Below are positions 42,309 through 49,477 of a stretch of DNA of 64,000 nucleotides, one piece after another (positions within the stretch are counted from its first letter, which is position 1; every line of letters starts with the position of its first letter). This stretch comes from Skermanella pratensis (GTDB taxonomy: Bacteria > Pseudomonadota > Alphaproteobacteria > Azospirillales > Azospirillaceae). The notes beneath the pieces were generated by a model. That model searched no databases. It was not told the origin of the DNA and saw only the letters and a list, made by a program, of their open reading frames with translations. The DNA is taken from NCBI RefSeq assembly GCF_008843145.1, contig NZ_CP030265.1:5015001-5079000 (forward strand). Direction: 5' to 3'. The position numbers were made by a program, and so were the translations under genes.

Positions 42309-42737
42309 TCAGGAGTTGGTCGTCGGAACCCAGGGGATGCGCTCGACGGTGATGCCTTCCTCTTTCAGCTCCGACGATTCGGCTTCCGTCGCCTCTCCGT
42401 AGATGCCGCGGCTTTCCACTTCGCCATAATGGATGCGCCGGGCCTCCTCGGCGAAACGGTCGCCGACATAGTCGCAGTTCTCCTCGACCTTGCGGCGCAG
42501 ATCCTTCAGCTCGCGCAGGATCTCCGCCTTCCGCCGGACCGCCTCGTCGGTGTCCTTGGCGGACATGTCGCGCGACTTGGCGATGCGCGGCGCCATCGGC
42601 GCCTTGCCGATCCGGACGTTACCGCAGATCGGGCAGGAGATCTCCTGCGCTGACGCCTGCGCCTCGTAAGCGCTGCTGTTCCTGAACCAGGCTTCGAAGA
42701 CGTGGCCGGCCTGGCACTTGAGATCGAAGAGGATCAT
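42309..42737 (-). CDS. DUF1178 family protein
   Basis: A 142-residue protein with the family start MILFDLKCQAGHVFEAWFRNSSAYE and a C-x2-C in SCPICGN; together with the Cys-Gly-His of the N-terminus this suggests a zinc-ribbon. The family-typical KAEILRELKDLRRKVEENCDYVGDRFAEEARRIHYGE and RGIYGEATEAE segments are complete. In many alphaproteobacteria DUF1178 follows a grxC-nitrilase pair directly; here that pair lies 3 kb upstream with three plus-strand genes in between. The function is unknown. Confidence 0.88.
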   Translation of the reverse strand: MILFDLKCQAGHVFEAWFRNSSAYEAQASAQEISCPICGNVRIGKAPMAPRIAKSRDMSAKDTDEAVRRKAEILRELKDLRRKVEENCDYVGDRFAEEARRIHYGEVESRGIYGEATEAESSELKEEGITVERIPWVPTTNS

Positions 42738-43647: not shown

Positions 43648-45381
43648 ATGGAACCCTTCTTTCGCGCCCTCGCCGAGCCCGGCGACTTTCTGCCCCACGG
43701 CCTTTGCTTGACTTGGCGGCCGGAGCTGATCTGGACCCATCTGCTGTCCGACCTGCTGATCGGTCTCGCATACTTCTCCATTCCGGTAGGATTGCTCTAC
43801 TTCGTCTGGCGGCGCCAGGACCTCGCCTACAAGTGGATTTTCCTGATGTTCTGCGGCTTCATCCTGGCTTGCGGGGTAAGCCATTTCTTCGGCGCCTGGA
43901 CCTTGTGGAACCCGGACTATGTCGCGCAGGGCGCGGTCAAGGCGTTCACCGCCGCGATCTCGGTCGTGACCGCGGTCATGCTGTGGCCCCTGATCCCCCA
44001 CGCGCTCGCCCTGCCCAGCCCGGCCCAGCTCCGCGACGCCAATTTCCGGCTCGAACAGCAGATCCGGGAGCGGCAGCGCGCGGAAGCGGAAGTCCGCCAT
44101 GTGAACGCGGCGCTGGAGCACCGGGTCGCCGAGCGCACGGTCGAGCTGGAGGCGGCCAACGCGGCGCTGCAGCGCGCCAACGAGACGCTGGAGGTCCGGG
44201 TCGCCGAGCGCACCGCGGAGCTGTCCGAAGCCAACCGCCGGCTGCGCGCCAGCGAACTTCATTATTCGAGCATCTTCCACCACCTGGCCGAGGGCCTCTT
44301 CGTCGTCCGGGTGGAGGGACCCGGCGAATACCGGTACGAGGCGCTCAACCCCAGCCACGAGCGCCAGACCGGCCTGGTCTCGGCGGAGGTGGCCGGCCGG
44401 GCGCCGCACGACCTTTTCCCACCCGCCCTCGCCGATCATCTGGTCGAACGCTATCGCGCCTGCTGCGAGGCCCGGCAGCCGATCCAGTACGAGGAGACGC
44501 TCGACCTTCCGGACGGCACGCGCATCTGGCAGACCAACCTGGCTCCCGTGTTCGACGCCGAGGGCCGTCCGACCAAGCTGCTGGGCACGTCGCGCGACAT
44601 GACCGAGTACCGCACGCTCCAGGAGGAACTGGCCCAGACCTCCAAGCTGGCCACCCTGGGCACCCTGGCAGCCGGCATCGCCCACGAGATGAGCCAGCCG
44701 CTGAACATCATCAGGATCACCGCCGACGACAATCGCCTTCTGATGGAGGAGGACGGGTTGGAAGCCGACGCGGCCTATCTCCGCCAGGGAATGGAGCTGA
44801 TCTCGACCCAGGCGGCCCGCATGGGCGAGATCGTCGACCAGATGCGCTCCTTCAGCCGCCGCGACGGCCCGGAAGTCGTGCCGTTCGATCCCGTCCAGCC
44901 GGTCCGGCGCGCCGTCGCCCTGCTCGAGCGCCATTTCGCGACCGAGGGTACGGTCCTGGCCCTGGCGGTGCCGCCCACCGCGCCCGCCGTGGCCGGACGG
45001 CCCGGCCGCCTGGAACAGGTGGTGATCAACCTGCTGAGCAACGCCCACGATGCCATCGCCGCCCGCCGGGGCATCGACCCGGGCTTCGAGGGGGGACGCA
45101 TCGAGGTCGGCCTGTTCGAGGAGCAGGGTCCGCACCAGATCCGCATCACGATCAGCGACGACGGAACCGGTCTGCCGCCGGGAATGGCCGACCGGATTTT
45201 CGACCCGTTCGTCACCACCAAGGAGGCGACCAAGGGTGTCGGTCTCGGCCTGTCGATCTGCGCCAGCCTGATCGGCGCGATGGGCGGGCGGATATCCGCC
45301 GAGAACCTGGACCAGGGAGCCCGCTTCACGATATTGCTGCCGGTCCGCAGCAGACCACCACATGAGATCCCGAATGCCTGA
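43648..45381 (+). CDS. Ethylene-receptor-like sensor histidine kinase (ETR1-type copper/ethylene-binding domain)
   Basis: A 577-residue membrane sensor kinase. Residues 27-125 form three hydrophobic helices that match plant ETR1: SDLLIGLAYFSIP carries D35, Y42, I45 and P46, and ACGVSH carries C75 and H79, each exactly ten residues after ETR1 D25, Y32, I35, P36, C65 and H69. C75 and H79 would bind the copper that holds ethylene. Then come a coiled coil with two ERTxEL-type heptads (about 130-195), a PAS domain (about 200-310), a HisKA domain with H346 in GIAHEMSQPLN, and a complete HATPase (NLLSNAHDAI, DDGTGLPPG, GVGLGLSI). The ATG at 43648 aligns with known bacterial homologues; a TTG at 43552 would add 32 residues. 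It overlaps the receiver gene by eight bases. Confidence 0.88.
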   Translation: MEPFFRALAEPGDFLPHGLCLTWRPELIWTHLLSDLLIGLAYFSIPVGLLYFVWRRQDLAYKWIFLMFCGFILACGVSHFFGAWTLWNPDYVAQGAVKAFTAAISVVTAVMLWPLIPHALALPSPAQLRDANFRLEQQIRERQRAEAEVRHVNAALEHRVAERTVELEAANAALQRANETLEVRVAERTAELSEANRRLRASELHYSSIFHHLAEGLFVVRVEGPGEYRYEALNPSHERQTGLVSAEVAGRAPHDLFPPALADHLVERYRACCEARQPIQYEETLDLPDGTRIWQTNLAPVFDAEGRPTKLLGTSRDMTEYRTLQEELAQTSKLATLGTLAAGIAHEMSQPLNIIRITADDNRLLMEEDGLEADAAYLRQGMELISTQAARMGEIVDQMRSFSRRDGPEVVPFDPVQPVRRAVALLERHFATEGTVLALAVPPTAPAVAGRPGRLEQVVINLLSNAHDAIAARRGIDPGFEGGRIEVGLFEEQGPHQIRITISDDGTGLPPGMADRIFDPFVTTKEATKGVGLGLSICASLIGAMGGRISAENLDQGARFTILLPVRSRPPHEIPNA

Positions 45382-45766
45382 CACCGATGCCATGACGCAA
45401 AGCCAGCCCAGGAGCCACATCCTGGTCGCCGACGACGAAGCGATCGCTGCCATGGCGCTCGAACGGTTCCTGACCCGCAAGGGCTATCGCGTCACCACCG
45501 CCTGCGACGGCAGGGAGGCCCTGGCGATCCACCGGCAGGATCCGGCCGACATCGTGGTGACCGACATGCGGATGCCGCGCGGCGGCGGGCACGAGCTGAT
45601 CGGCAGCCTGCGCTCCACCGACGGCGATCTTCCGATCGTCGTGATGACCGGCTACATGTCGCCGAACGAGGAGGAGGCCATTCCCGTTGGCGACAGGCTG
45701 GTGGTGATGCAGAAGCCGATCGAGGTCGAACGACTCCTGCAGATCATCCGGAGCTTCACGGGCTGA
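45374..45766 (+). CDS. Single-domain response regulator (CheY-like receiver)
   Basis: A 130-residue receiver with no output domain. The acidic pair D20-D21, phospho-acceptor D64 (VVTDMRMP), the Thr in VVMTGYM and the Lys in VMQKPIE are present, so it should be phosphorylatable. The start codon lies inside the 3' end of the sensor kinase gene, making it the probable cognate partner. An ATG at 45362 is a longer alternative. Without an output domain it must act by protein contact or in a phosphorelay. It is convergent with the nitrilase gene (3 bases apart). Confidence 0.9.
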   Translation: MPDTDAMTQSQPRSHILVADDEAIAAMALERFLTRKGYRVTTACDGREALAIHRQDPADIVVTDMRMPRGGGHELIGSLRSTDGDLPIVVMTGYMSPNEEEAIPVGDRLVVMQKPIEVERLLQIIRSFTG

Positions 45767-48739: not shown

Positions 48740-49477
48740 TCAGACGCCTTCGGCCATGTCGTAGATGCCGTCCATGTCGGCGATCTGGATGCGGTTGCCT
48801 TCCTGGAGCGAGATCGCCTGGGAGGTCTTGAGCTGGGTGAAGGTCCGGCTGACGGTCTCGGTCGTGAGGCCCAGGTAGTCGGCGATGTCGGCCCGGCTCA
48901 TCGGCACATAGACCGGGTTCTCCTTGTGGCCGCGGCGCGACTGGCGCTGCGACAGCATCAGCAGGAACGAACAGATCTTCTCCCGCGCGGTCTTGCGTCC
49001 GAGCAGCAGCATCTGGTCCTGCGCCGCCGCCAACTCGTTGGACGCCATGGAGAACAGGCGCCGCTGCATCTTCGGGAACTCGTCGAGCAGCGCTTCCATC
49101 TTGCGGCGGGGGAATCGACAGAGCGAGGTGGGCGTCACCGTCTCCGCCGAATAGGCGTAGCTCTCGTTCATGGCGAGGCCGAGGAAATCGCCCGTGACCA
49201 GGAACCCGGTGATCTGCCGACGCCCGTCGGGCAGCAGCTTGTAGAGCTTGACCGTGCCTGAGGTGACGTTGAACAGGGCGTCGGCCTGGTCGCCCTCGGC
49301 GAAGATCGTCTGGTTTCCTTCCAGGCGCTGCATCTGGACGATATCGGCGAGCCGGCGCACCTCGTCCGCCTCCAACGCCGCACAGACCGTCAGCGTCCGA
49401 ACCGGACACGCGCCGCAGGGCGTCGCCTCCGCCGCGGCACCCTTGTCGCGCACCCTGCCCATGTCGAATGGAGGCAT
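48740..49477 (-). CDS. FNR-type oxygen-sensing transcription regulator (FnrN/FixK family)
   Basis: A 245-residue Crp/FNR regulator. The four likely 4Fe-4S ligands are C21, C24, C32 and C120 (a C-x2-C-x7-C group plus one distal Cys), as in FnrN proteins. A cyclic-nucleotide-like beta-roll precedes the dimer helix and an HTH with ADYLGLTTETVSRTFTQL, where Glu, Ser and Arg are the residues that read TTGAT half-sites in FNR. It should activate anaerobic and microaerobic genes when the cluster is intact. The cbb3 maturation genes are next to it, and an FNR-like site lies upstream of ccoG. No FNR box was found at its own promoter. Confidence 0.92.
   Translation of the reverse strand: MPPFDMGRVRDKGAAAEATPCGACPVRTLTVCAALEADEVRRLADIVQMQRLEGNQTIFAEGDQADALFNVTSGTVKLYKLLPDGRRQITGFLVTGDFLGLAMNESYAYSAETVTPTSLCRFPRRKMEALLDEFPKMQRRLFSMASNELAAAQDQMLLLGRKTAREKICSFLLMLSQRQSRRGHKENPVYVPMSRADIADYLGLTTETVSRTFTQLKTSQAISLQEGNRIQIADMDGIYDMAEGV

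Follow-up and report, generated by a model that had tools for sequence, protein, structure and literature searches.

The kinase and receiver genes

Within the window, the 64-kb stretch of Skermanella DNA analysed here, two overlapping genes on the forward strand encode an ethylene-receptor-like histidine kinase (43648..45381, +) and a single-domain response regulator (45362..45766, +), so that translation of the frames confirms a locus spanning 43648-45766 as given by the first-pass annotation. The kinase frame opens with the ATG at 43648 and its stop codon ends at 45381, yielding a protein of 577 aa which, on its translation, its Pfam matches and its 48% identity (573 aligned positions, gaps included) to a 525-aa gene of Azospirillum brasilense Sp7, is probably the counterpart of AzoEtr1. 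Residues 26-122 (43723..44013, +) constitute an ETR1_N ethylene-binding domain with three predicted transmembrane helices, recognised by PF25487 with 134.1 bits against a cut-off of 27 (E 2.2e-39). Since this match extends over all of the model positions 1-97 and the same profile is matched in none of the 14 control genomes (0/14), it is not a product of chance.

The residues on which ethylene binding depends in AtETR1 are all found in this domain. D35, Y42, I45, P46, C75 and H79 align with ETR1 D25, Y32, I35, P36, C65 and H69 at a constant offset of ten, as had been proposed from the letters alone, and to these six is added a seventh that the earlier list lacked, I72 (ETR1 I62, with the same offset), while the helix-3 lysine K91 corresponds to K98 at an offset of seven. 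The two membrane domains share 36% identity over 95 aa, and the pairs D25/D35, C65/C75, H69/H79 and K91/K98 are likewise given for AzoEtr1 in PMC11819568.

Behind the membrane domain extends a long signalling helix or coiled-coil linker (residues 125-189; 44020..44214, +), which is delineated by the model helix and the alignment and is longer than that of AzoEtr1, the term 'coiled coil' reflecting a reading of its repeats by eye. It is followed by a PAS domain (residues 205-322; 44260..44613, +) matched by PF08448, PF13426 and PF00989, by a HisKA dimerisation/phospho-acceptor domain (residues 337-407; 44656..44868, +), for which the PF00512 match of 28.9 bits lies barely above the cut-off of 26.9, and by a HATPase_c ATP-binding domain (residues 452-567; 45001..45348, +; PF02518, 80.9 bits). 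The putative phospho-acceptor H346 lies inside the HisKA match and is invariant across an alignment of 48 rows; together with N465, D504, G506, G508 and G534 it is the same in the other 47 rows. The structure model (30 input sequences, mean pLDDT 82.2) places membrane helices at 25-55, 62-87 and 91-112 and reproduces the order of long helix 125-189, PAS, HisKA and ATPase elements, the relative placement of the domains being unreliable because the pTM of the full-length model is 0.42.

The regulator frame of 134 aa carries a single Response_reg domain above the cut-off (PF00072, 78 bits), and is 51% identical to the 135-aa regulator AzoRR of Sp7 over 117 aligned positions. It overlaps the kinase gene by 20 nt if translation begins at ATG 45362 and by 8 nt if it begins at ATG 45374; the latter, giving a receiver of 130 aa, is more likely to be the start, judging from the 8-nt overlap of the A. 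brasilense pair. The presumptive phospho-acceptor D68 (numbered from 45362) has an equivalent aspartate in all 35 aligned receivers, namely 33 short linked receivers, that of the window and that of Sp7. The main elements of the first-pass annotation are thus borne out: the three N-terminal helices by the model, the Cys/His/Asp match by the ETR1_N score and by alignments with ETR1, AzoEtr1 and homologues, the intact His346 and ATP-binding domain by the HisKA and HATPase_c matches and the invariance of the histidine, and the output-less receiver overlapping the kinase 3' end by its Response_reg domain and 8- or 20-nt overlap.

Relation to described receptors

The family to which Skermanella belongs already has a published and experimentally examined pair of this kind, and the Skermanella pair adds to it. 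AzoEtr1 of A. brasilense Sp7 is a protein of 525 aa with a three-helix ethylene-binding domain, a PAS domain and a histidine kinase, whereas AzoRR-etr1, a 135-aa regulator without an output motif, is encoded directly downstream and overlaps the AzoEtr1 stop codon (Carlew et al. 2025, PMC11819568). Residues 1-130 of AzoEtr1, cloned from Sp245 where they are the same as in Sp7, bind 14C-ethylene saturably, the organism responds to ethylene, and the D35A and C75A variants do not rescue biofilm formation, although the authors themselves advise caution because two plasmids were used in the rescue tests; phosphotransfer to the regulator and the sign of the response are predictions only (PMC11819568). 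The first-pass annotation named A. brasilense as possessing such a receptor, and the two parts for which it had no match among described systems, the PAS domain and the linked output-less receiver, are both published for AzoEtr1/AzoRR-etr1 (PMC11819568). With this the hint of novelty falls and the functional reading stands.

On the Sp7 plasmid ABSP7_p1 we find a 525-aa frame and a 135-aa regulator frame (from an inner ATG) overlapping by 8 nt; agreement in strain, lengths, overlap and residue numbering leads us to infer that the former is the AzoEtr1 gene of the paper. The two kinases share the same domain order and an identical numbering of D35, C75, H79 and K98, and both are followed by an output-less regulator, with the 8-nt overlap in common if the Skermanella start is ATG 45374. 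They differ in the linker, which in Skermanella is 57 residues longer (a net 52 over the protein), and in location: the Sp7 pair lies on a plasmid record and adjoins genes for release factor 3 and aspartate-semialdehyde dehydrogenase (PMC11819568), whereas the Skermanella pair, with other neighbours, lies on a contig of 5.87 Mb. A reading of the longer linker as a novelty was dismissed on the ground that members of the genus differ in linker length, the proteins of the window and of two other Skermanella loci (L033 and L034) measuring 577, 559 and 553 aa.

Plant ETR1, in which all seven binding residues and the K91/K98 lysine are shared, differs in having a GAF domain and in having its receiver fused to the kinase, where Skermanella has a PAS domain and a separate receiver. 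The decayed kinases among the plant receptors are those of subfamily 2, and ETR1 itself has histidine kinase activity, which is reportedly, going by its title, the subject of Gamble 1998; an earlier characterisation of the ETR1 subfamily as decayed kinases is to this extent inaccurate. Signalling by the plant receptors is described as passing to a Ser/Thr kinase and as largely independent of the histidine kinase (PMC11819568). Among bacteria, SynEtr1 (slr1212) of Synechocystis PCC 6803 likewise joins an ethylene-binding domain to a histidine kinase signalling to a regulator, slr1213, and is set apart by its description as also a light sensor whose regulator switches on the transcription of a small RNA (PMC11819568, PMC6682694). 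In the SynEtr1-like GeiEtr2 of Geitlerinema a PAS domain separates the ethylene domain from the kinase (PMC6682694).

Conservation among relatives

One pattern scan of genome contigs matched at least 586 stretches, 526 of which encode relatives, and the best 80 of these 526 were retained. Receivers were sought around them with a profile made from the two receivers, one counting as 'linked' if it follows on the kinase strand at a distance of no more than 400 nt. A linked receiver lies downstream in 59 of these best 80, 12 carry a receiver fused into the reading frame of the kinase, neither was detected by the profile in 6, and 3 loci were not judged, because the sequence stops short or the locus could not be resolved; among the sampled relatives a linked receiver is thus common and no oddity. 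The same-frame loci are L041, L042, L043, L044, L065, L072, L073, L078, L083, L092, L101 and L109. The 59 linked receivers divide into 33 with fewer than 60 aa past the receiver and 26 with more, a classification which counts only the residues past the receiver in frames taken from stop to stop and whose shorter class includes weak matches (the lowest 23.8 bits, at L037) and one frame of 92 aa (L060). With a cruder motif, for which 30 of 64 matches were fetched, the receiver starts at the kinase end in 25 of 30 same-family loci, the window's included.

All seven binding residues are present in 78 of 81 other alignment rows and K98 in all 81, the exceptions being a serine for P46 in L046 and L052 and a leucine for I45 in L107. 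The invariance of I72, C75 and H79 is partly by construction, since these residues are covered by the peptide patterns with which the scan was run; only D35, Y42, I45, P46 and K98 provide a free test of conservation. Among the 48 kinases scanned, out of 82, PAS_4 is matched in 30, and a PAS domain between sensor and kinase is therefore common; 8 match HWE_HK and 8 HisKA_2, from which it would seem that the ethylene sensor is joined to several kinase classes.

Genus, family and genome context

The ETR1_N domain occurs in 62 of the 82 genomes of the family searched, the window's own included, and in all five genomes of Skermanella, one of which has two matches; second matches in two relatives lie at G079:C1:2284490-2284777 and G039:C8:103911-104195. 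The genome of the window has one such gene, a search for a second ETR1_N copy there having found none. The window domain shares 88-91% identity with its counterparts in Skermanella stibiiresistens and S. aerolata and groups with them in a tree built on 141 columns (support 100/96), with Aerophototrophica next (97/92); the tree says nothing firm on plants, because the branch leading to AtETR1 is very long. At full length the kinase shares 77-78% identity with both of these Skermanella kinases and 95% with L008 from another genome of the genus.

The neighbouring genes encode a DUF1178 protein, a methyltransferase, a carbon-nitrogen hydrolase, a glutaredoxin and a protein with double zinc ribbon and phosphoribosyltransferase matches, which we take to be ComF-like. 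In both named Skermanella loci the first two are likewise upstream and the last three downstream, and in the Aerophototrophica locus (L035) only the upstream DUF1178 and methyltransferase genes were found in the DNA examined. The DUF1178 protein (42309-42737, -; PF06676, 174 bits) adjoins the receptor locus in L033, L034 and L035. Elsewhere in the window, 48740-49477 (-) encodes a CRP/FNR-type regulator (cNMP_binding and HTH_Crp_2 in Pfam) with an N-terminal cysteine cluster, CGACPVRTLTVC, resembling that of oxygen-sensing FNR-like proteins. The 64-kb window contains no tRNA genes and no Rfam families at gathering score, and the ACC deaminase model TIGR01274 is unmatched in the genome at E <= 0.001 (matches in 6/14 controls, over the family's cut-off in 0/14, so that the controls supplied no true positive). 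An RpoN-like site is reported for Azoetr1 (PMC11819568); upstream of the Skermanella kinase none is found with the pattern used at up to two mismatches. At this tolerance the window holds 49 sites where chance would give 62.7, and the sole site near the kinase start falls within coding sequence. In the limited literature searched no paper was found that treats Skermanella and an ethylene receptor together.

Interpretation and alternatives

The proposal of an ethylene-receptor-like two-component system is supported by the profile match, the binding residues, the similarity along the entire proteins and the arrangement of the genes. The evidence in hand comprises sequence, domains, residues, full-length similarity, linkage and predicted fold, and on it we would give a probability of about 0.88 to the reading that the pair is a copper-dependent ethylene receptor kinase with its cognate single-domain regulator, the counterpart of AzoEtr1/AzoRR-etr1. 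Weighing against it are the lack of an RpoN-like site upstream of the kinase, the pTM of the full-length model, the caution of the Azospirillum authors over their rescue tests, and the 6 of 80 relatives in which the profile detected neither kind of receiver. Judging from sequence, the pair very probably senses ethylene; its binding by the kinase, and likewise the copper, the sign of the response, the phosphotransfer partner and the targets, we infer. Ethylene would bind in the membrane domain at a Cu(I) site formed by C75 and H79 and positioned by D35. The change would then travel through helix 3 (K98) and the long linker helix, pass the PAS domain and reach the H346 kinase. The receptor most likely works by inverse agonism, as proposed for ETR1, SynEtr1 and AzoEtr1: the kinase would be on in air and lowered by ethylene, such that reduced autophosphorylation of H346 would, by analogy with ETR1 and SynEtr1, leave less phosphate to be transferred to the receiver's D68. 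As the receiver has no output domain, it would act by partner contact or as a phosphate store, and its action might bear on attachment to surfaces and on carbon/nitrogen physiology, as in Azospirillum.

A broader conception takes the ethylene-binding domain as a module joined by bacteria to several kinase classes and receivers, and the Skermanella protein as a two-input sensor with PAS, tuned by a species-variable linker and driving a contact-based output; taken as a whole, we regard this as tentative and rather doubtful. We judge it improbable that the membrane domain retains its copper site while the main input in Skermanella is something else (copper, another small alkene, redox or light), with PAS supplying the main signal. 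Such a view could draw on the dual ethylene and light reception of SynEtr1 and on the stronger effects of receptor loss than of ethylene treatment in A. brasilense (PMC11819568), as well as on the PAS domain in the Skermanella kinase and in relatives (by PAS_4 alone, the 30 of 48 noted above), some of which, for example Marinobacter and Saccharospirillum, have no evident plant link; yet the seven ethylene-binding residues and K98 are all retained, and AzoEtr1, of identical domain order, binds ethylene in a host that responds to it (PMC11819568). That the domain is a decayed or chance copy which senses nothing any more is extremely unlikely, no support for it having been found against two intact reading frames, kinase residues retained as in the 47 other rows, the 95% identity to the L008 copy, and an arrangement of neighbouring genes that recurs in both named Skermanella loci and, on its upstream side, in Aerophototrophica.

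Read as the counterpart of AzoEtr1/AzoRR-etr1, the locus widens the range of the published proteobacterial ethylene receptor pair to include Skermanella, a soil bacterium, ethylene being a plant gas and A. brasilense a root bacterium. The question of what the output-less receiver acts on, posed in A. brasilense (PMC11819568), can thereby be taken up in a second genus.
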